NCBI GenBank assembly: GCA_947625905.1
Contig: CANQQJ010000023.1
Span: forward strand, 1-53,521
Length of the DNA: 53,521 bases
DNA from: an uncultured Clostridia bacterium
Lineage (GTDB): Bacteria > Bacillota > Clostridia > Monoglobales > Monoglobaceae
Direction of reading: 5' to 3'
The translations under genes were made by a program, and so were the position numbers. Below are positions 8,899 to 51,589 of the stretch, one piece after another. Position 1 is the first letter of the stretch. Every line of letters starts with the position of its first letter. The notes below the pieces were generated by a model. It ran no database searches. It had not been told where the DNA came from and worked only from the letters and a program-made list of their open reading frames with translations.

Positions 8899-9843
8899 TT
8901 ACTTATTCTGCTCGCTGAAGCGGTTCATCTGCTCGGTTATGCGGCGGTTAAGCTCCTCTGCCGCGTTGTAGCCCATCCGCTTCTGCCTGTTGTTCATCGC
9001 CGCGACCTCGAATATGACCGCCAGGTTTCGTCCGGGTCTCACCGGAACGGTCAGCGACGGGATATCAAGGCCGAGAATGTTGGTGTACTCGTCGACAAGG
9101 CCCAGGCGGTCGTACTGCTTGTTGCGGTCCCAGGTCTCGAGGTGGATTATCATGTCAATATTCTCGGAATCCTTGACCGCGCCCATGCCGAATATGTTTT
9201 TGACGTCGACTATGCCTATGCCGCGAATCTCGATAAAATGCCTGATTATATCGGGCGAAACGCCGATCAGGGTCTTTGACGAGACCTTCTTTATCTCCAC
9301 CGCGTCGTCGGCCACAAGGCGGTGTCCGCGCTTTATGAGCTCCACCGCGGTCTCGCTCTTGCCGACGCCGCTCTCACCCAAAATAAGCACGCCCTGGCCG
9401 TATATCTCGACCAGAACGCCGTGGCGCGTGATCCTCGGCGCCAGCTCAAAGCTCAGGTACGCGTTGAGTGTGCTGGTGAAATACGAGGTGGGCTGCGGCG
9501 TTCTCAAAACGGGCGTCTCGTACTCCTCGGCGAGCTTCAGCATCTCGGCGGACGCGTTTCCGTTTCTGGTGAGTATCATTGCCGAGATGTGCTTTTCAAA
9601 AAGCCGCTTTAAGCTCTTGTACCTGACCTCGGCCGAAAGGCCCGTGAGATACGTGTTTTCGACCATGCCGAGTATCTGAATGCGGCTGGGGTCAAAATAA
9701 TCAAAAAAGCCCGTTATCTGCAGGCCGGGACGGTTCACGTCCGCGGTCTCTATAAATATTTCCTTGTCGGGATAATAAAGCTTCTCAAGCTTCATCTCGC
9801 GAATAACCTTTTCAAGACTGACGGTAAAAATTTCTTTCTCCAT
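8899..9843 (-). CDS. hprK: HPr kinase/phosphorylase
   Basis: 314 residues. HprK phosphorylates and dephosphorylates Ser46 of HPr, linking glycolytic state to carbon catabolite repression. Visible features are His141 in HGVLVEIYG, Walker A GESGVGKS at 156–163, the VADDAVEI block, and the signature EIRGIGIVDVKNIFG of the C-terminal catalytic core. The N-terminal domain is complete. It is first in a six-gene operon ending with whiA and has a textbook promoter upstream. Confidence 0.95.
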   Translation of the reverse strand: MEKEIFTVSLEKVIREMKLEKLYYPDKEIFIETADVNRPGLQITGFFDYFDPSRIQILGMVENTYLTGLSAEVRYKSLKRLFEKHISAMILTRNGNASAEMLKLAEEYETPVLRTPQPTSYFTSTLNAYLSFELAPRITRHGVLVEIYGQGVLILGESGVGKSETAVELIKRGHRLVADDAVEIKKVSSKTLIGVSPDIIRHFIEIRGIGIVDVKNIFGMGAVKDSENIDMIIHLETWDRNKQYDRLGLVDEYTNILGLDIPSLTVPVRPGRNLAVIFEVAAMNNRQKRMGYNAAEELNRRITEQMNRFSEQNK

Positions 9844-9880
9844 AGGATCTACCTCTACTGCAAATTTTTCTGTAAAATAT

Positions 9881-9909
9881 ATTATAATTCAAGCTTTACC
9901 GTTTGTCAA
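9881..9909 (-). promoter_or_regulatory. Consensus promoter of the hprK operon
   Basis: On the minus strand, TTGACA (9904–9909) and TATAAT (9881–9886) are exactly 17 bases apart, about 40 bases before the hprK start. It is a perfect housekeeping sigma-factor match. The mosaic repeats start immediately upstream of the −35 box. Confidence 0.85.
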
Positions 9910-9911
9910 GG

Positions 9912-10430
9912 GGAGTGATTAGCGATTAGCGAATAGTGATTAGGACGGGCGGCCGGGGTCGTCCGCCCCTACGGGTGCCGATGATATACCGAATCGCCGC
10001 GAACCGCGCAAATTGCGCCAAACCCTGTAGGGGCGGATATTATCCGCCCCTACGGCGTTTTGCGCACCACGGTCGTAGGGGACGACGACCTCGGCGTCCC
10101 GCGGGCGGATATTATCCGCCCGCTCTATTCACTATTCGCTAATCACTACGTTGGCCCGGGCGGCCGGGGTCGTCCGCCCCTACGGCGTTTTGCGCACCAC
10201 GGTCGTAGGGGACGACGACCTCGGCGTCCCGCGGGCGGATGATATCCGCACGCTCTATTCACTATTCGCTAATCACTACGTTGACACCTCATCAGTCTGC
10301 TTCGCAGACAGCTTCCCCTCAAGGGGAAGCCTCTCTTGCCTTCCCCTCAAGGGGAAGGTGGCAGGCGCAGCCTGTCGGATGAGGTGTTCTATTCACTATT
10401 CGCTAATCACTAATCCCTACGTTCCCACAT
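9912..10430. repeat. Mosaic palindromic repeat cluster with 130-bp tandem duplication
   Basis: No gene. The cluster joins several short modules: AT-rich strings of the GATTAGCGAATAGTGATTAG type; a GGCCGGGGTCGTCC module (9945–9973 and 10156–10184); a GACGACGACCTCGGCGTCC module (10074–10101 and 10204–10231); GGGCGGATATTATCCGCCC palindromes; and a GGAAGGTGGCAGGCG-type hairpin (10286–10387). About 109 bases at 10045–10153 recur at 10175–10283 with few changes, a tandem duplication of period 130. Confidence 0.9.
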
Positions 10431-10497
10431 TCCCACGTCAAAACAATACTCTTATAATTTTTTGTTTTATTCTTATATACATATATATTTGAAAATT

Positions 10498-10601
10498 ATG
10501 CGAGAATGCGAGACATTGGCCCGAAACCCACGTATCCACGGGCTTTGCGATGTCTCGCATGATTCAAATTTACGCGAGACATTGCGAGATATGCGAGACA
10601 T
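10498..10601. repeat. Iteron-like cluster of the 11-mer ATGCGAGACAT
   Basis: The 11-mer occurs at 10506–10516, inverted at 10550–10560, with one change (ACGCGAGACAT) at 10572–10582, and again at 10591–10601. Partial copies (ATGCGAG at 10498, TGCGAGAT at 10583) lie between. The first and inverted copies could form the base of a 55-base hairpin. The cluster lies just after the stop of the DUF927 ATPase gene and ahead of an AT-rich stretch (10440–10500). It is unrelated to the GC-rich mosaic repeats. Confidence 0.75.
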
Positions 10602-10610
10602 TTTTAACGT

Positions 10611-12551
10611 CTATTCGATTGAATTATCATTGGTTTGCAATTTTATGTATCTTGCCTTTGTACCATAGCAACTGGTGCAATGATCAAACCTCCCGTCGGG
10701 GTTCCTCACCAAAAACCCGTCGGAGACCCATTCGTTTTTCACTGCCTCGAAGGAATATCCCTCGTTCTTAAGCTCGCGGCACAGGATGGTCTTGTTAAAA
10801 AGCACCGTGTCGCCGTCGATCTTGCCCCAGATCTCGCGGCTGATGTTGCCGGGCGAGAACATATTGACGTTCGCAGCGATCAGGCCCTCGGTGAACTCCC
10901 GCGCGCGTTTCGCGGCGCTGACCGCGGTGTCCGACTTCATGAACCGCGCGGCGGTCTCGGCCGATATCGGCGTTTCGTTTTTAAACAGGTATTCGCAGGC
11001 AAGGCGGTCGCCCGTCAGGATCGCTGCCATTGCCGAGGCCTGCTTGCCCGTGGCGTCGAGGCGGACGAGCTTTCCGAAGTATTCGTCGTAGATTCTTTTC
11101 GCGGCGCTCGGGTCTTTTTGGTATTCCTCGATAAACAGCCGCCCCGCCGAGCCGTAGTTTTCGGAAAACAGCCCCGCCAGTTCCGCGGGCGAGACGGACG
11201 GGCGGCCGGGGTCGTCCGCCCCTACGGCATTTTGCGCACCACGGTCGTAGGGGAGGCAGGATTGGTAGGCTCCCCTTCCGAAGGAGGGGGAGCTGTCGCG
11301 GAGCGACTGAGGGGGTGTGTCTCCGCTACAATAACCCCTTCCACCGCTGTCGCGGTCCCCCTCCCCCACCTTACGGCAGGGGAGGCAGGTATCCGCGCCC
11401 GCATTTACGCATATCACGCGGTTGACGGCGCCGCCGCCCGACGATGTATCAACGCACGGCTCCTCGCCCGTGAACAAAAACGCGCACCGCCATGTCCGCG
11501 TCCTGTTAAGGCTCGAGTATGTCATTCTTGCGCGGTCCATGCCCTCGGTGCAGCTCATTATAAGGCGGTCGTAGTTCTCGCGCCTGTTCTTGATTATCTG
11601 CAGCTCGTCGCCCCCGAACGGCAGGTTGCGCAGAAAGGCCGAGGTGCTCAGCATGGCGTTTAGGGTCATGTTCATGGTTTTGGTCATGCCGCCTATCCTC
11701 GGGTCGCCCCAGACCGACATGGCCGCTTGCAGCGTCAGCGTCTTGCCGCAGCCCGTCGGGCCCCAGAGGCAGAACACAAACGGCTGCAGGTTGAGAGGCT
11801 CAAGCAGCGGCGAGGCGAACGACGCGCCCATCATCAGGCGGAACGCGAGGCTTTCGCGGTATTTCGCCATGCCCGTTACCCATTTTTCGAGCGAGCCCTT
11901 TTCGCGCACGGGCTCGAGCAGGTGTTTGTTGTCGCCGGGGTTGATGTATGTGGCGAAAGATTGGCGCGTTCCCACCTCCGTCGGGCTGTCGCCCGACACC
12001 TCCTCCCCGGAGGAGGCAGGCGGGACGTCGAGGGCGCCGTCCCCTACGGATCGGGAGGAGGCAGATATTGCGGCGTAGGGCAAAAATTCGCCGTCGAACC
12101 AGCCGAGGCGGGAGGCCGTTTTGCGCTCCGGGATCCTGTCGGGGTTCAGGCTTATGACCTCGGCCAGGAATTTCACCAAATTCGCCGCGGTCTCGCTCGT
12201 GACCTCGATCCCCTTGTCGGCCAGCTGCACTATCTTCACCGCGCTTGATATCTGCGAGCGCGGGCACACCACGGTGCGCCACCTGCCGCGGACGCGCGTC
12301 TTGAGCTCCACCGACGCGAGCTCACTCTCGGGGTCATAGAGCAGCGCGGTCGGCATGATCGGCGCGGCCGAGGCCGTTCTCCTGACCATGGCTCCGCGGC
12401 TGTCGATGTACTCAAGGCGCACGCCGCTGTCGTCCGCGGTCCACTCGCCGCAGCGCAGCCTCAGTGCCTGACCCTCAAACTCGGTCTCGTTGTCGCCGTT
12501 GTTTTCCATTATCTCGGATATTAAGTTTTTGATATATGTTTTACTGTTCAT
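10611..12551 (-). CDS. DUF927-type helicase-like ATPase with two in-frame repeat insertions
   Basis: 646 residues. A Walker A motif GPTGCGKT lies near residue 266, followed by FGGDELQ and a GAVNRV block, as in DUF927 (PF06048) proteins of phages and integrative elements, which act with primases. Residues 164–195 and 389–451 are translations of the mosaic repeat modules found between genes in this window; without them the protein would be 551 residues. Both insertions (96 and 189 nt) are multiples of three and contain no stop. The start codon overlaps the stop of the CHC2 gene by one base, so the two are translationally coupled. DNA-replication function is inferred from family and neighbour. 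Whether it is still active is uncertain. Confidence 0.8.
   Translation of the reverse strand: MNSKTYIKNLISEIMENNGDNETEFEGQALRLRCGEWTADDSGVRLEYIDSRGAMVRRTASAAPIMPTALLYDPESELASVELKTRVRGRWRTVVCPRSQISSAVKIVQLADKGIEVTSETAANLVKFLAEVISLNPDRIPERKTASRLGWFDGEFLPYAAISASSRSVGDGALDVPPASSGEEVSGDSPTEVGTRQSFATYINPGDNKHLLEPVREKGSLEKWVTGMAKYRESLAFRLMMGASFASPLLEPLNLQPFVFCLWGPTGCGKTLTLQAAMSVWGDPRIGGMTKTMNMTLNAMLSTSAFLRNLPFGGDELQIIKNRRENYDRLIMSCTEGMDRARMTYSSLNRTRTWRCAFLFTGEEPCVDTSSGGGAVNRVICVNAGADTCLPCRKVGEGDRDSGGRGYCSGDTPPQSLRDSSPSFGRGAYQSCLPYDRGAQNAVGADDPGRPSVSPAELAGLFSENYGSAGRLFIEEYQKDPSAAKRIYDEYFGKLVRLDATGKQASAMAAILTGDRLACEYLFKNETPISAETAARFMKSDTAVSAAKRAREFTEGLIAANVNMFSPGNISREIWGKIDGDTVLFNKTILCRELKNEGYSFEAVKNEWVSDGFLVRNPDGRFDHCTSCYGTKARYIKLQTNDNSIE
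11199..11387. repeat. 189-nt mosaic repeat inserted in frame in the DUF927 gene
   Basis: Contains the GGCCGGGGTCGTCC module at its left and a long GC palindrome at its right whose last 53 bases closely match the intergenic module at 42021–42073. On the gene strand it reads as 63 sense codons. Gene-like sequence resumes on both sides (NAGADT before, SVSPAELAGLF after). Confidence 0.85.
11967..12062. repeat. 96-nt mosaic repeat inserted in frame in the DUF927 gene
   Basis: Consists of a TTCCCACCTCCGTC hairpin module, a CTCCTCCCCGGAGGAGG palindrome and a GGGACGTCGAGGGCGCC module that also occurs at 42178–42206 and 46554–46580. It encodes 32 sense codons between YAAIS and RQSFATYIN. Confidence 0.85.
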
Positions 12552-13081
12552 TATATCACCTCATTTCGATATTGTTCATCTATCAAATTGATCAGCAGCT
12601 CGGTTTGATTGAGCTTTTTCGCAAGCGCCGCCTTTTCGTCGCCCGGAGGCTCGGCGTTCATCGCTTCTCTGAGGCGGTGCATCTCGCCGCACAGCGCCGA
12701 GTAGAGCCGCTTTTCCTTTTCTGCCTCACGGTCGCGTCTGAGCATCTCGCGGAAGTGCCGCTTCTTGGCGCGCAGCATGATGTCGCGCCGCTCGGATCCC
12801 GGTATCTCGCGGTCAAGGCCGAGGCCCAGGGCGCAGTCGATAAATTTAGCGGCCTCGGGCGCGCTCAGACCCTCGTGCAGCTGCGCCAGCGTTATGATAT
12901 CGCCGCCCGCGCCGCAGCCGAAGCAGTAAAACAGCTGCTTTTCGGCGTCGATCTTCATGCTGGGCGTTTTGTCGTCGTGCAGCACGCAGCGGCACATTCC
13001 GCGCCTGTCGGGCACGCCCCCGAACAGCCGCGCCAGGTCCTCGATCCGCGCCGCCGCCTTGAGCTCGGTGAATTTTATCAT
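12551..13081 (-). CDS. CHC2 zinc-finger primase-like protein
   Basis: 176 residues. The N-terminal 75 residues form a DnaG-type CHC2 zinc finger: CVLHDDKTPSMKID then FYCFGCGAGGDIITL, with Cys-His-Cys-Cys ligands. The remainder is helical and basic (LRAKKRHFREMLRRDREAEKEKR). No TOPRIM catalytic domain is present, so this is only the template-binding part of a primase. Together with the next gene (DUF927 ATPase) it looks like a phage or integrative-element replication pair. The start is fixed by AAAGGAGGTGATTTTTTT before ATG at 13081. A 10-bp AT hairpin (13098–13119) lies just upstream, between dnaJ and the ribosome binding site, without a T run. Confidence 0.85.
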   Translation of the reverse strand: MIKFTELKAAARIEDLARLFGGVPDRRGMCRCVLHDDKTPSMKIDAEKQLFYCFGCGAGGDIITLAQLHEGLSAPEAAKFIDCALGLGLDREIPGSERRDIMLRAKKRHFREMLRRDREAEKEKRLYSALCGEMHRLREAMNAEPPGDEKAALAKKLNQTELLINLIDEQYRNEVI

Positions 13082-13143
13082 AAAAAAATCACCTCCTTTC
13101 AATTAAAAGTTTAATTGAAAAGAAGTGACAAAAAATGTCGTTT

Positions 13144-14289
13144 TTATTCAAAAAAGTCCTTGATTTTTTCGCCGAAGCTTTTTCTGCGCTTGTATTTTGC
13201 GGGATCGACGCTGTCGTCGAACTGCCGCAGCAGGTCCTTCTGCTTTTCGGTTATACCCTTGGGGATCTCGACCTGCACCTTGACGTACTGGTCGCCCCTT
13301 GTCGAACCGTTCAGCCTGACCGCGCCCTTGCCCTTGAGCCTGAACACGGTCCCGGGCTGGGTACCCTCGGGGATATTGTAAGTAACGCTGCCGTCCACCG
13401 TGGGCACCTTCACCTCGCCGCCCAGAGTGGCCTGGACAAAGGTTATCGGATAGTCGCACATTATGTCGCTGCCCTGACGGACGAAGAGCTTGTGCGGCTT
13501 CACGCGGACGGTTATAAGCAGATCGCCCGCGGGGCCGCCGTTTTTGCCTATGTCGCCCTCGCCGCGCACGTTGAGCGTCTGGCCGGTGTCTATGCCGCCC
13601 GGTATGTTGACGCTGATTTTTTTGCTGTTGCGCATGGAGCCCTCACCGCGGCAGGTTTTGCACGGGTCGTTAATGATCGTGCCCTTGCCGCGGCACACCT
13701 CGCAGGTGCGGACCGACTGCATATTGCCGAACGGGGTCCGCTGCACCGAGCGCACCTGTCCCGTGCCGCCGCAGTTTGTGCACCTTGTCGGCTTGCTTCC
13801 GGGCGCCGCGCCGCTGCCGTGGCAGGTGTGGCACTCCTCCATATGGCTGACCGTGACGTCCTTCTTGGCGCCGAAGCAGGCCTCCTCGAACGTCAGGTCA
13901 ATATTCATGCGCACATCGCGGCCGCGCTGCGGACCGTTTTGGTTCCGCCTCGTCGCGCCGCCTCCGAAAAAGCTGCCGAATATGTCGCCCAGGTCGAAGT
14001 CGTCAAAGCCGCCGAAGCCGCCGAAGCCCCCGCCGCCGTATCCGGCAGCCGCGTTCGGGTCAACGCCCGCGTGCCCGAATTGGTCGTATCTCGACTTTTT
14101 ATCGGGGTCGCTCAGCACCTCGTAGGCCTCGCTGGCCTCTTTGAACTTCGCCTCCGCGCCTTCCTTGTCGTCGGGGTTCAGGTCCGGATGATACTTTTTC
14201 GCCAGTTTTCTGTATGCTTTTTTTATCTCGTCGGCCGAGGCGTTTTTGTCAACCCCGAGCACCTCGTAATAATCTCTTTTATCTGCCAT
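13144..14289 (-). CDS. dnaJ: Chaperone DnaJ
   Basis: 381 residues, type I Hsp40. The J domain (1–70) has the HPD triad in [11 protein letters not shown], followed by a Gly/Phe-rich linker (about 83–110) and four CxxCxGxG zinc repeats ([32 protein letters not shown]; about 153–215), then the two substrate-binding beta domains. It stimulates DnaK ATP hydrolysis and delivers unfolded clients. It follows dnaK, but a 259-base repeat-filled gap separates them. GGAGGA precedes the ATG. Confidence 0.97.
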
Positions 14290-21800: not shown

Positions 21801-24364
21801 CGCTTGTTGATGTGGAAATACATGAAAATGTAAAAACAATAGAAAATCGCGCATTCTCCGGCTGCACTTCACTTCGTAAAATAAGACTACCCGAAAAACT
21901 GGAAATCCTTGGACCGCTTGTTTTTGAAAACTGCACTTCCTTAGAATCTGTTAATATTCCGGCAACAATAGAATATTTAGACGCAAATTTATTTGAAAAT
22001 TGCGTGTCGCTAAAACTGTTGTTTGTGCCGGAAAATGTTAAACCGGCCCAGCATCTCTGGGATTTTGAAGAATCTATATTTTTGAATTGCCGCGATCTTA
22101 TAGTATGCGTTGTTGAGAACAGTCAGATGCACCAATATGTTAAACAATTTAATGTGCCGTATTTTGTGATTCCTCATACCGAAAATCCGTTTGTGTCTCA
22201 GGGCGCGCCGGTGAGCGGGGTCATTACCTCTCTTTCGGGCGCGGCCGTGGAGGGCGCCGCGGTTGAGCTTATCGACAAAAACGGCGCTGTGCGCGAAACT
22301 GTCACAACGGACGAGAACGGCTCATACAGCTGCACATACGCCGAGGTCGGCTCCTACACCGTCCGCGCGACCGACCAAAGCGGAAACACAGGCTCTAACA
22401 GCTTTTATGTAAAGCGGCTTGACGCTTTTGATGTGTATGTCACAGACGGAACGGACGTCACGATCAAGGACGGAGCGGCGGTCAGGGGAACCGTGTCAAA
22501 CGAGGGCGGGGCGCCGATCGAGGGTGCCAAGGCCGAGCTTATCGATGAGAACGGAATGGTGGCCGCGTCCGCCGAAACGGATCCGAGCGGCGGCTATATT
22601 TTCCCGTATGTGCCGGGAGGCACCTATATTATCCGCGTGACCGACGAGAGCGGCAACGCGGCCTCCTGCGAGATCACCGTGTTCCCGTCAAACGGAGACG
22701 TTGCGCGTGATCTCACGATACGTCAAGGCGCGGCCCTGAGCGGACGCGTGATATATGAGGACAATATGCCCGCGTATTGGGCGGAGGTCATAATAACCAA
22801 TGACGCGGGCGACAGGATAGCGGCGCTCAACACCGACGCCGAGGGACGTTACTCGATATCGGGCATCCCCGTCGGATATTACAACATCACCGCGGTTTAT
22901 GATTACGGCAATATTAAATATACAGGCGCGACCGCCGTGACCATAAGCGAGCCGTCTGACATAACCGCCGGCGACATAGTGCTTAAAGCCTCCGCGCAAA
23001 ATCTCGGAAACGCCACGATCGAGGGCAAGGTCACCGGACACGGACAGACGCAGGATTCGACCGTTGTGCTGAAAGACGCGTTCATGAACGAGATCGCGGT
23101 CTGCACAACGGGCAAAAACGGCAAATACGCTTTCTATAACGTTCCCGACGGCGCATATACTATAATCGCGACTACATCATCGCTGGGCGCGGGATACACC
23201 GTTATAACCGTCGAAAACGGCAAGGTGACGGCGGGCGACACGGATATAACCGTGTATAAGTCAGGAACAGTCGAGGACCTTGAGACCCTGATCGACCTTT
23301 TGCCCGATCCGACGGATACCGCCGCGGTATCGGCCTCGCGTGACGATATATCAAAAGCGAAAAATATCTATGACAGCTTATCGGACAAAAACAAACGCCG
23401 CGCGGATAAAGAAAAAATCGAAAAGCTCAACAGCCTTATCGCCGCGATATCCAATTTGTATATAGGCATATCGGGCGCGCCGCAATATGCGCCGACGGCC
23501 GAGGGACTTGAAACGCTGATCTCCGATACCGAGATGCTTTCGCAAAACTCGGGCAGTATTTCGCTTGACGTTTCGGTATTTAATGAAGTCTATTCGGAAG
23601 AAGACCCGCTCACCGAAAAATATGATATGGAACAAATACATAAAACAGCTGCGGACGCAGGCGTAACGATCGCGGAATATTTTGACATATCACTCACAAA
23701 ATCAACCGAGAGCGGCGAAAAGAAAATTACGGACATATCAAAGGATTCTGTCGGCACGGGCGAGGTGAAGATCACACTGATGCTGTCGGAACAACTTAAA
23801 GGACACGAGAACTATTATATGCTCCACACGCACAACGGACGCGCCGAGCTGCTCGCGGATATCGACAACGATCCCGACACCGTAACATTTGAAACCGGCA
23901 AGTTTTCAAAATTCGCCATGGTATATGACGATATAGAAAGGGCGGGAGAAGGAACCGATGAACCCGATCCGACCGCTGAGCCCACAACAGAGCCGACCGC
24001 TGAGCCCACAACAGAGCCGACCGCTGAGCCCACAACAGAGCCGACCGCGGAGCCCACAACAGCGCCGACTGCGTCTCCGGAGCTTGGATATGATTATGAT
24101 ATGATCTCGGCAGAATATGACGACAGCGGAAAGCTGAATATTATCTTGAAATATACAGGCGAATCGGCGAATCCCAAAGCAAAACTCATTGCCGCCGTGT
24201 ATAACGAGAACGACATCATGATCAGCGCCGATATGTATGATATCGAGGGAACGGAAATCAAAGATTTAGATTTTGTTAAGCCGGACTATGGATCCGTGAA
24301 GCTGTTTATCTGGAGCGATACAGACACCGCTAAACCGCTGAGCGAACCAAAACGACTGAATTAA
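18863..24364 (+). CDS. Giant secreted leucine-rich-repeat (BspA-like) surface protein
   Basis: 1833 residues. A signal peptide covers about 1–26 (LLLILSF core; no good lipobox despite nearby Cys). Residues about 95–1110 are LRR_5/BspA repeats of roughly 23 residues. They fall in four modules, each opened by a cap such as YYLHDGKASLMYCD and followed by IGxxAFxxCxxLxxIxIP repeats. Next come four carboxypeptidase-regulatory-like beta domains (about 1113–1466), a helical segment, a mixed domain, a Thr/Glu/Pro linker (about 1700–1736) and a C-terminal domain ending KLFIWSDTDTAKPLSE, common on clostridial surface proteins. No LPXTG or SLH anchor is seen. Adhesion or host/particle binding is family-based inference. 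The ATG follows CGGAGGAG; an upstream in-frame ATG is not supported. The LRR core is clearly more AT-rich than both flanks. Confidence 0.88.
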   Translation: MIKRIGALLLILSFMCSACVYDASALTVDNAQSQDVTDAPQSLQSDIALQSADDEWSYEQIEYGGETGMLLTEYKGAEIDVFIPLEIEADGVSYPVLKLGDGLFKNNTNINSVTLSANVKAIGAEAFSGAENMVCVVANEGLSEIGDRAFSGCSKFNSIVLYDAVTSIGADAFEGCGSVKVYCNENSAACEYMKQNKINYVLMSTDAKPEVVDIDDISYYITNGSVILMSGANASGDVVIPAEIRGYPVTRVNAKAFSQNTAIRSVYLPDTVTDLGDQIFSNCTSLESVRLPQGISKIPSGAFDSCWALQGIDLPDGISRIGRTAFFACGNIKEITIPKNVSAMEYASFYGCSGLRKIDIPSGVRVIETYAFDSCANLESVTIGENVTTIQYKAFSFCSSLTSINIPSSVTNIEASVFNSCEKLSYVYLPQGLTNIDPSAFSNCAGTLLLIVYEDSYSHRYAVENSIPFMFNTENIDDVIVESYPVKYYLHDGKASLMYCDREACGDIIVPDKINDIPVTEIGVNAFRDCYNVALTLPDTITKINNGAFYGCGLTSVNIPDGVEYIGEDAFNRAGGLENVVLPSSLKEIGKSAFYKSTLKDASIPDGTEKIGTGAFSRSSIRHLSLPSTLNEFPDNLCWGCNYLKSAEIKHGTQIIGRSAFLECPSLKEITIPDTVQTIRDYAFCGCTALQSIILPVGVQIIEADAFSGCSSLETLKIPESVVSVGSEIVSRCKNLIALYVPASLTDITDNAFLGGNFIMFVHRDSEGYQYAVDHDIKYWFIDESEPEIQNSDGLVYLVNENEAILMTCDAEKAGTVIIPETVDNKPVVEIYQSAFANCGLIQSVSIPSTVKKIGSHAFEFCSQLETIDLSDLDIDTLELNTFSWCEKLTNISLPRNLKVIKGYVFSGCSALKEINIPDTVTSIGESTFYQCAALDNIELPDGLEELGCDAFYDCKALRSIKIPAGINTIPLYLCYGCESLVDVEIHENVKTIENRAFSGCTSLRKIRLPEKLEILGPLVFENCTSLESVNIPATIEYLDANLFENCVSLKLLFVPENVKPAQHLWDFEESIFLNCRDLIVCVVENSQMHQYVKQFNVPYFVIPHTENPFVSQGAPVSGVITSLSGAAVEGAAVELIDKNGAVRETVTTDENGSYSCTYAEVGSYTVRATDQSGNTGSNSFYVKRLDAFDVYVTDGTDVTIKDGAAVRGTVSNEGGAPIEGAKAELIDENGMVAASAETDPSGGYIFPYVPGGTYIIRVTDESGNAASCEITVFPSNGDVARDLTIRQGAALSGRVIYEDNMPAYWAEVIITNDAGDRIAALNTDAEGRYSISGIPVGYYNITAVYDYGNIKYTGATAVTISEPSDITAGDIVLKASAQNLGNATIEGKVTGHGQTQDSTVVLKDAFMNEIAVCTTGKNGKYAFYNVPDGAYTIIATTSSLGAGYTVITVENGKVTAGDTDITVYKSGTVEDLETLIDLLPDPTDTAAVSASRDDISKAKNIYDSLSDKNKRRADKEKIEKLNSLIAAISNLYIGISGAPQYAPTAEGLETLISDTEMLSQNSGSISLDVSVFNEVYSEEDPLTEKYDMEQIHKTAADAGVTIAEYFDISLTKSTESGEKKITDISKDSVGTGEVKITLMLSEQLKGHENYYMLHTHNGRAELLADIDNDPDTVTFETGKFSKFAMVYDDIERAGEGTDEPDPTAEPTTEPTAEPTTEPTAEPTTEPTAEPTTAPTASPELGYDYDMISAEYDDSGKLNIILKYTGESANPKAKLIAAVYNENDIMISADMYDIEGTEIKDLDFVKPDYGSVKLFIWSDTDTAKPLSEPKRLN
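23973..24068 (+). repeat. 24-bp tandem repeat encoding a TEPTAEPT linker
   Basis: Four near-identical 24-base units (GACCGCTGAGCCCACAACAG plus four bases) encode alternating TEPT and AEPT. This is an extended, probably glycosylatable spacer between the core and the C-terminal domain. Copy number in such arrays often varies. Confidence 0.85.
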
Positions 24365-35143: not shown

Positions 35144-35172
35144 ACAAAACACCTCCCAAATTAATATTGCAT

Positions 35173-35202
35173 AAAAAATGCGGCGCGCAAAAGCACGCCG
35201 CA
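35173..35202 (-). terminator. Attenuator hairpin in the infC leader
   Basis: In the minus-strand RNA, UGCGGCGUGC pairs with GCGCGCCGCA around a UUUU loop and is followed by six U. It lies between promoter and infC and looks like a leader terminator. Operon control by L20 or IF3 would act here; the factor is inference. Confidence 0.8.
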
Positions 35203-35292
35203 ATATAAACCCAAATAAAAATTCAAATTATATTGCCCTTTCGCTGTTCGCTGAGGGGAGAAGCGCGACTTCTGCTTTATTCAACGCATGAT

Positions 35293-41959: not shown

Positions 41960-42221
41960 ATTTTCGATATTCGCTATTCGCTAATCACTGCGTTGCTGCC
42001 TCCTCCCGGGAGGAGGCATACCCCTACCACCGCTATCGCGGTCCCCCTCCCCCACCTTACGGCAGGGGAGGCAAAATAGGCTCCCCTGCCTAAAGGAAGG
42101 GGAGCCGGGCGGCAGATTGCCGCCCCTACGGATTTGGCGTAATTCATGCGGATTGTGAAAAACCCTGTGAGGGCGAGACGGGACGTCGAGGGCGCCGTCC
42201 CCTACGAACTTGTCCCTACGT
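41960..42221. repeat. Mosaic repeats between putP and the glycine/alanine symporter
   Basis: No gene. Holds ATTCGCTAATCACT strings, CCTCCTCCCGGGAGGAGG, a module (42021–42107) closely matching the insertion in the DUF927 gene, a GGCGGCAGATTGCCGCC palindrome and GGGACGTCGAGGGCGCC (42178–42206). An ACGTAGGGAC edge directly follows the symporter stop. Confidence 0.9.
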
Positions 42222-43802: not shown

Positions 43803-43843
43803 AAACAAAAATGAAGAAAAATATCGCAGCTCGCGCTGAAATA

Positions 43844-43930
43844 CCTCCGTCCTTTTGCCTGAGAGATTGGCTCTCGCCGTACACCTTCGGCCCCCGATCG
43901 GCGGCACGGTGCCGCGCGGGTTTCTCCGGA
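43844..43930 (-). ncRNA. Glycine riboswitch aptamer
   Basis: On the minus strand the hallmark strings appear in order: GGAGAAACCCG, GGGCCGAAGGTGTA, GCGAGAGCC, CTCTCAGGCAAAAGGAC. This is the conserved core of the glycine aptamer. Only one aptamer is visible, not the classical tandem pair. It controls the Na+ symporter downstream; on or off behaviour cannot be decided by eye. Confidence 0.9.
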
Positions 43931-43961
43931 GCGCCGCGCCGAATTTGACGCGACAATTTTA

Positions 43962-51159: not shown

Positions 51160-51307
51160 TTGCTATTTGCTATTTGCTAATCACTAATCGCTACGTTCCC
51201 ACCTCCGTCTTTTCGCCGAAGGCGAAAAGCCACCTCCTCCCGGGAGGAGGCAAACAGGCGGCCACAGCCGCCCGCCCTAGTGCCTAGATCCTATTTCCCG
51301 GTCCCTA
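51160..51307. repeat. Mosaic repeats before the tRNA remnant
   Basis: No gene. CTATTTGCTATTTGCTAATC strings, one TTCCCACCTCCGTC…GGAGGAGGCAAAC module (51196–51253), then the CCGGTCCCTACGTTG edge also seen at the end of grpE. Confidence 0.85.
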
Positions 51308-51311
51308 CGTT

Positions 51312-51589
51312 GGCTCCCGCAAAGCGCCAACGCAGTGCGCTTTGTGGGAAAAGCGGAAAAATGACCGCCCAAAAAAGAAAGTCATGCTTTGCATGACTTT
51401 CGTAAACAGGCGGTCTCTTAGGGCTCCCACGGAACGCCAGCGGAGCGCGTTTCGTGGGATAAGTGCCGCATCTTAGGGCTCCCGCAAAGCGCCAACGAAG
51501 TGCGCTTTGTGGGAATAGCGGAAAATCAACCGCCACAAAAAGAACACCTTGCTTGCAAGGTGTTCGCAAAAAGGCGGTTGATTTTCCGC
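51312..51589. repeat. Tandem nested hairpins next to the tRNA remnant
   Basis: Three related GGCTCCCGCAAAGCGCCAAC-type palindromes start at 51312, 51421 and 51477. Two of them carry a longer arm pair with an inner hairpin: GACCGCC…GGCGGTC around AAAGTCATGC/GCATGACTTT (51363–51415), and a 17-bp arm at 51518–51534 with 51573–51589 around GAACACCTTG/CAAGGTGTTC. On the minus strand each inner hairpin is followed by five or six T and would end tRNA transcription. Confidence 0.85.

Follow-up and report, generated by a model that had tools for sequence, protein, structure and literature searches.

Palindromic repeats in frame at two sites of a phage-type helicase gene in four Monoglobus species

The closest described counterparts of the case reported here are GTAG REPs that lie inside genes, many of them genes of replication and repair (PMC3733652). 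The cases set out in that source include a double insertion in one gene (uvrA of O. terrae), REP clusters that code for 43-82 residues, recB genes of two Xanthomonas species that hold different REPs at roughly one position, and some species with one modified gene only; it also associates REPs with RAYT transposases, and its main text contains no match for the words Clostrid- or Firmicutes. Rickettsia palindromic elements (RPEs), as described in PMC10969869 and PMC2229807, are palindromic repeats of ~100-150 bp with an open frame that lie in frame within protein genes and occur in many genes; RPE-4 and RPE-6 have CGTC ends (PMC3733652). Intragenic ERIC and Correia elements are small repeats fused in frame to genes, and the stop-rich form of Correia is found almost only between genes and the open form in genes (PMC2229807). 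Among the papers listed by keyword searches of the open-access literature, none concerns repeats of the genus considered here.

We analyzed a stretch of 53,521 nt (the window), contig C23 of a genome that comprises 68 contigs and 2.96 Mb. A first-pass annotation had read two stretches of its DUF927 gene as intergenic palindromic repeats inserted in frame, and comparison of the sequences supports that reading. The parallel that it drew with Rickettsia stands insofar as palindromes lie in frame within a protein gene, as in RPEs. The nearer kind, on the cases presented in PMC3733652, is the intragenic GTAG REP: the tagged modules bear GTAG and not the CGTC end tag, and insert content differs between species, unlike that of RPEs as described in the sources above. 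The likeness to ERIC and Correia, as outlined in PMC2229807, is that small repeats lie in frame with the gene. Compared with the REPs that PMC3733652 describes, those at this locus are mixed with untagged two-hairpin modules, and the case spans four species and two sites, at which modules turn over and have probably passed from one site to the other. Intragenic REPs are an already known kind, including double insertions and insertions near one position in two species (PMC3733652); what is new is the lineage, the presence of untagged modules beside the REPs, a series of four species compared at both sites, and the indications of exchange. Protein-coding palindromes are thereby extended to a clostridial gut lineage. 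Below, G000 denotes the genome from which the window comes; G002, G004, and G010 are close sister species, and G006 is a diverged one.

The 646-aa product of the host gene matches the family profile PF06048 (DUF927; E = 2.1e-25) and, in PHROGs, the DNA primase/helicase family phrog_8841 (E = 1.9e-119). A profile search of the Protein Data Bank finds two solved sequence relatives, the chains of 8tch ("Pathogenicity island protein") and 5dgk ("Active helicase"); by phmmer, with flanking pieces that are weak alone, 8tch has ~9 and ~12 residues where the DUF927 protein (P0001) has ~40 and ~74. The neighboring CHC2 gene is without any repeat run in our repeat-run scan. The two genes form a pair that in G000 is located between dnaJ and hprK. 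Gene order around the pair is the same on both sides in G004; G010 agrees on the hprK side, its contig starting in front of the CHC2 gene, and in G002 the pair lies at another place. The dnaJ-hprK interval (window 8899-14289; L251, L252) varies in the genus, with the helicase-primase pair in G000 and G004 and two-component-type genes in G005 and G002. By our reading of a tally that includes module-only matches, the DUF927 gene (matches along most of the protein) is present in five of the 12 genus genomes: G000, G002, G004, G006, and G010. Close relatives of the CHC2 gene are found in the same five. Gene names without a family match, the signal peptide, and RAYT catalytic motifs are likewise our reading of translations.

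Table 1. Coordinates in the window of the host gene, its inserts, their modules, and related repeats
Feature	Position	Strand	Remarks
DUF927 gene, phage-type primase/helicase, 646 aa, two in-frame repeat inserts	10611..12551	-	PF06048, phrog_8841
CHC2 zinc-ribbon primase partner gene	12551..13102	-	PF01807, E = 6.9e-14
Insert at site 1 (residues 164-195): GTAG hairpin, then two-hairpin module	11967..12062	-	Modules placed by blastn
M5, GTAG-tagged hairpin, read SVGDGALDVP	12021..12050	-	Folds with GTAG unpaired
M4, two-hairpin module, 51 nt, 3-nt loop, read ASSGEEVSGDSPTEVG	11968..12018	-	
Insert at site 2 (residues 389-451), 63 residues	11199..11387	-	86 residues vs. 23-28 in 68 homologs
M1, left half of composite element	11334..11387	-	96% to 42020-42073 (family D17)
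Linker between composite halves	11317..11333	-	Similar in G010 sites 1 and 2
M2, right half of composite element	11268..11316	-	
M3, GTAG-tagged hairpin (11199-11225) at its end	11199..11258	-	
Intergenic copy of M1	42020..42073	-	
Intergenic repeat array directly downstream of DUF927 gene, GTAG hairpins and AT-rich linkers	10027..10428	.	

The two stretches, of 96 and 189 nt, are multiples of three, stop-free, and begin at codon boundaries of the gene, as the first-pass annotation had them. They are made of modules abundant between genes, again as proposed. The 189-nt stretch has at least 61 matches in its own genome (E ≤ 0.001) and the 96-nt stretch at least 54, its own place included in each case; both numbers are lower bounds because only 40 of 121 and 40 of 117 candidates, respectively, were scored. 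The longer stretch is matched in nine of the 12 genus genomes, and the repeat content of both far exceeds chance.

Site 2 is laid out as left half, linker, right half, and a further module with a GTAG hairpin at its end. The match of one end of the longer stretch to DNA at about 42021-42073 is borne out by M1 (Table 1), one 45-nt window of which is identical to a fetched G010 locus. M2 matches DNA outside the gene at 44/45 nt, vs. 32/45 for the same site in G010, and positions 11199-11254 of M3 agree with 10157-10212 at 98% over 56 nt. The common form of M4 is 50 nt long with a 2-nt loop and holds a stop in the gene's frame. GTAG stays unpaired in the folds of the in-gene hairpins at site 1 of G000, G002, and G004, as it does in REPs, and M1, M2, M4, M7, and M8 are without the tag and are not filed as REPs. 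The complete composite element is matched solely within this genus, and its right-half core in 24 of 196 sampled genomes of the class, four of these in the genus. Readings of the inserts include the residue stretches SVGDGALDVPPASSGEEVSGDSPTEVGTR and GEGDRDSGGRGYCSGDTPPQSLR, and polar residues are abundant in the translations. Since 27.9% of 96-nt windows and 8.0% of 189-nt windows in intergenic repeat arrays are stop-free, openness alone is weak evidence; the argument for insertion draws on the shared sites, the homologs, and the selection on the gene.

For comparison with homologs, a scan of viral contigs gave no relatives with a narrow alignment and 288 with a broader one; the best 80 loci yielded 68 distinct proteins, all of which were aligned, and site lengths were counted between two conserved residues. 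Site 1 has 28 residues in all 68 homologs. Site 2 has 23 residues in 61 and 24-28 in the other seven. In the window's gene and its close sisters, site 1 has 65 (G000), 52 (G002), 84 (G010), and 91 residues (G004), and site 2 has 86, 82, 67, and 58, respectively. The near-constant lengths in the homologs therefore indicate insertions into length-constant places; the segments are missing from the homologs, as had been predicted, and none of the 68 has the extra length that the same residues in unrelated homologs would bring. The predicted insert sizes hold for the second (63 residues; 86 minus 23), whereas the first amounts to 37 (65 minus 28) and not 32. The diverged G006 gene has 47 residues at site 1 and 25 at site 2, with no module match at either. 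The 19 surplus residues at its site 1 (L012, G006:C159), without a recognizable module, are possibly an old decayed insert.

The inserts are not private to G000. Three sister species are filled at the same two sites with other modules, so that all four close orthologs have inserts at both, and all eight inserts are multiples of three, stop-free, and in frame. We compared insert DNA in windows of 45 nt, for which inherited core DNA would be expected to give ~39-41 matches (87-90.5% identity). Out of 43 windows, 21 have a match of ≥40/45 in outside DNA, here meaning DNA with the DUF927 genes masked but not necessarily intergenic; good outside matches are favored because that DNA was fetched for its likeness to the inserts. 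By our own count on this comparison, in which related copies are non-independent observations, the same site of a sister species is at least five matches worse or absent in 17 of the 21 windows and within three matches in four. Junctions and linkers are among the remaining 22 windows, and gene copies give the best match for several of these, as plain inheritance predicts. Shared sites, together with sister sites clearly worse in 17 windows, therefore make the sites look old and their content subject to turnover.

The reading that we favor, with a probability of roughly 0.7, is that palindromic repeat DNA entered two length-constant sites of the helicase gene, where modules have since been replaced or added in frame. 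GTAG-tagged REP hairpins and untagged two-hairpin modules would have entered the two sites, probably before the split of the four Monoglobus species that share the inserts. Later in-frame replacements and additions of modules would have drawn on the intergenic pool and on exchange between the two sites, possibly through ectopic recombination, and the GTAG hairpins may have been mobilized by a RAYT-like transposase of the same genome. Translation of each insert would add a polar segment of 24-63 residues, presumably a loop. The explanation builds on what we observe: the identity of the modules, the sharing of both sites, the open reading frames, purifying selection elsewhere in the gene, and mosaic relationships. 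Because the four sisters differ at the same two places, the turnover of repeat-derived segments can be followed, and not single frozen insertions. This suggests that repeat DNA between genes keeps supplying new protein segments, and the question of whether protein evolution draws on selfish repeats can be tested directly.

Module content that varies among species would also be expected if hot or tolerant sites had independently received each species' own repeats, with no exchange, a history that we consider unlikely. Site 1 in all four genes has GCCTC, 10 nt, and GTAGGGG, behind which the hairpins are all different, with 27 nt in G000, 27 nt in G002, and 24 nt in G004, that of G010 being collapsed. 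The 10-nt spacing is common to the four site-1 copies and G002 site 2 (5/5), which speaks against independent insertions; it is not private to the gene, since two of 26 contexts outside the gene have it too, and to that extent independent insertions gain. Against them is also the linker type that G000 site 2 shares with G010 sites 1 and 2, found in none of the 11 other sampled composites with the same left half; its presence in the G000 and G010 inserts points to common descent.

There are hints of sequence exchange between the two sites of the same gene, as judged from local alignment. Site 1 has its best local score with its own site 2 in G002 (57.5), G010 (95), and G004 (45.5, a narrow lead over two scores of ~44), whereas in G000 the two sites have little in common (11.5), unlike in the three sisters. 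M3 and M4 keep one frame and one orientation in every in-gene match of ≥18 nt in the gene direction. In G010, differing loop lengths shift the frame within M1 at site 1 and within M2 at both sites, after which it returns. AT-linker motifs are present in none of the eight inserts, whereas of the 16 repeat runs elsewhere in the window 14 have them within 60 nt. The M4 loop is ACA in all three in-gene copies, vs. one of 66 other copies (P = 8e-5, Fisher's test; copies related), and has 3 nt in 22 of the 66 others (P = 0.044, Fisher's test; copies related). Stop purging in M4 was set aside as proof of selection; it is weak, since the compared copies are related. The derivation of the gene linker from a stop-rich AT linker by point changes was dropped because composites elsewhere carry the same stop-free linker type. 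All four composites with a ATGCGATTTGGAACACAAA-type linker captured by pattern (L140, L141, L146, L110) are stop-free in the gene's frame, and three captured composites with AT linkers contain stops.

A dead or decaying gene might tolerate inserts since it is unimportant, and the DUF927 gene is indeed accessory, with its presence in fewer than half of the genus genomes. The G004 gene has an in-frame TAG in its start region, which deprives it of the usual start, so that a later one must serve. Moreover, aligned blocks with the pair (inserts and flanks) have 81-90% nucleotide identity, vs. 93-95% in neighboring blocks, and the pair is therefore less conserved than its surroundings. However, protein identity among the four sister genes outside the inserts is 88.5-92%, and dN/dS is 0.13-0.14 (dN 0.044-0.063, dS 0.34-0.49; NG86, inserts excluded) in all six pairs of the four species, G004 included. 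Many motif residues are unchanged across 48 aligned proteins. The dN/dS ratio therefore indicates that the gene is maintained, with the purifying selection on its core that the first-pass annotation had anticipated, and the sister genes are open, though that of G004 is without its usual start. We regard decay of the gene as quite improbable.

Slightly lower still do we rate the chance that the inserts are untranslated, either because ribosomes bypass the hairpins or because the repeats are mRNA structures only. The predicted folds are strong, and the M4 stem in G000 differs by a paired change from A-T to G-C, which could reflect constraint on nucleic acid rather than protein. Bypass needs neither a multiple of three nor an open frame, yet all eight inserts have both. 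An assembly artifact, with repeats wrongly placed in the gene by the assembler, is scarcely credible. Metagenome assemblies underlie the named sister records, the other genomes are fragmented, and both window ends are an 80-nt repeat, but the two places are occupied in four separate genomes by in-frame inserts that differ in content. Normal variable loops or low-complexity linkers of the family that merely resemble repeats, which would account for polar-rich inserts, have next to no likelihood given the near-constant site lengths in the homologs and DNA identity to copies elsewhere of up to 45/45 nt.

Beyond the DUF927 gene, the fetched DNA (777 kb, partly overlapping, DUF927 genes masked) contains 157 distinct GTAG hairpin contexts, with 50 inverted pairs. 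REPs are likewise numerous, lie mainly between genes, and often form inverted dimers; hairpin position relative to genes was checked here for samples. A length of 24 or 27 nt is shared by 151 of the 157 hairpins that the pattern search retrieved outside the gene, and exchange of one for another therefore keeps the frame. The tolerance of such insertions thus has a possible reason, because the main hairpins are multiples of three.

The view that DUF927 is the only gene with inserts was withdrawn after three further candidate cases. A scan for repeat runs of ≥28 nt, which is blind to a lone 24- or 27-nt hairpin, gives 132 runs in 284,769 bases of own DNA, three of them in the DUF927 gene and the other ORFs apparently spurious; 135 runs in 261,760 bases of sister DNA reveal no further credible gene. 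A peptide search of the 12 genomes gives 377 matches; among the ~150 listed, we inspected those with an open frame of ≥150 aa outside DUF927 genes, which led to a second gene at G002:C4. A search of G000 and G002 with GTAG-hairpin peptides gives 82 matches at E up to 10, mainly inspected in frames longer than ~115 aa, and led to the three candidate cases; peptide searches cover one reading frame only. At G002:C4:57501-57620, two GTAG hairpins and a third hairpin lie in frame in a 7815-aa open frame (L268:2004-2085), directly behind what we take, from the translation, to be the signal peptide of a secreted giant protein. In contig C12 of the own genome (L270:1-2412, plus strand), the frame of a CopA-like P-type ATPase continues across four GTAG hairpins, identified by blastn, and on into an HMA domain resembling CopZ. 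The junction is possibly a read-through spacer and not an insertion, because the HMA part may retain its own start. The match at G002:C31:5301 (695 aa) is at the 5′ edge of its frame, and other long-frame matches inspected are upstream extensions or spurious.

The third case is a 171-aa RAYT-like ORF in contig C3 of the own genome (L272:833-1348, minus strand), with two GTAG hairpins in frame in opposite orientations. Its neighbors are presumably luxS-like and purine nucleoside phosphorylase-like genes, on our reading of the translations. The ORF matches NCBIfam NF047646 over residues 71-155 (E = 7e-15; 55.2 bits, below the curated cut-off of 80) and has no Pfam match. PF01797 is absent from the own genome and present in two of the 12 genus genomes, and the absence of a RAYT from the own genome, concluded from PF01797, was revised on the NF047646 match below cut-off. 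For the untagged modules no mobilizer is known to us, the search for one having covered Y1_Tnp.

No relative of the RAYT-like ORF was found in viral contigs. Two full-length relatives, on Leptolinea and Spirosoma plasmids, are without the first hairpin segment, where the own ORF is seven residues longer than both. At the second hairpin it is no longer than either; this is therefore a variable stretch that need not be an added piece. The Leptolinea gene has six GTAGGG sites within 1.1 kb, all outside the coding region and one of them folding poorly, and the Spirosoma record has no GTAG hairpin at the RAYT-like gene. A plasmid transposase of Monoglobus pectinilyticus has one GTAG hairpin 5′ of the gene and one inverted inside it, the latter in the same stretch as the inverted hairpin of the own ORF. 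In NZ_OY725736.1 (L277:664-1029) this transposase, whose inverted GTAG hairpin reads TRADMESAPT, adjoins methyltransferase genes. GTAG hairpins in or beside RAYT-like genes are thus found in three records. The RAYT-like ORF is a candidate mobilizer in the same genome, and its neighborhood fits the REP-RAYT association described in PMC3733652.

A wider and distinctly more tentative reading, which we think possible and would not bet on, treats the GTAG hairpins of 24 or 27 nt as frame-neutral cassettes. The RAYT-like transposase, which itself carries hairpins in frame, would spread them, and ectopic exchange would continually move them between intergenic arrays and variable protein segments in the helicase, the transposase, and the giant secreted protein. 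If this were true, the REP pool would be a standing source of new protein segments.

Several other elements of the window were noted in passing. The contig ends (1-80 and 53442-53521) are inverted copies of each other at 99% identity, and the assembly therefore probably broke at a repeat. A short tandem repeat (GAGCCGACCGCTGAGCCCACAACA) lies at 23966-24085, near the end of a 1863-aa ORF, and a separate local repeat family (GGCTCCCGCAAAGCGCC...) has three copies at 51306-51554. An L20 leader and a glycine riboswitch are located on the minus strand at 35166-35283 and 43837-43939, respectively.
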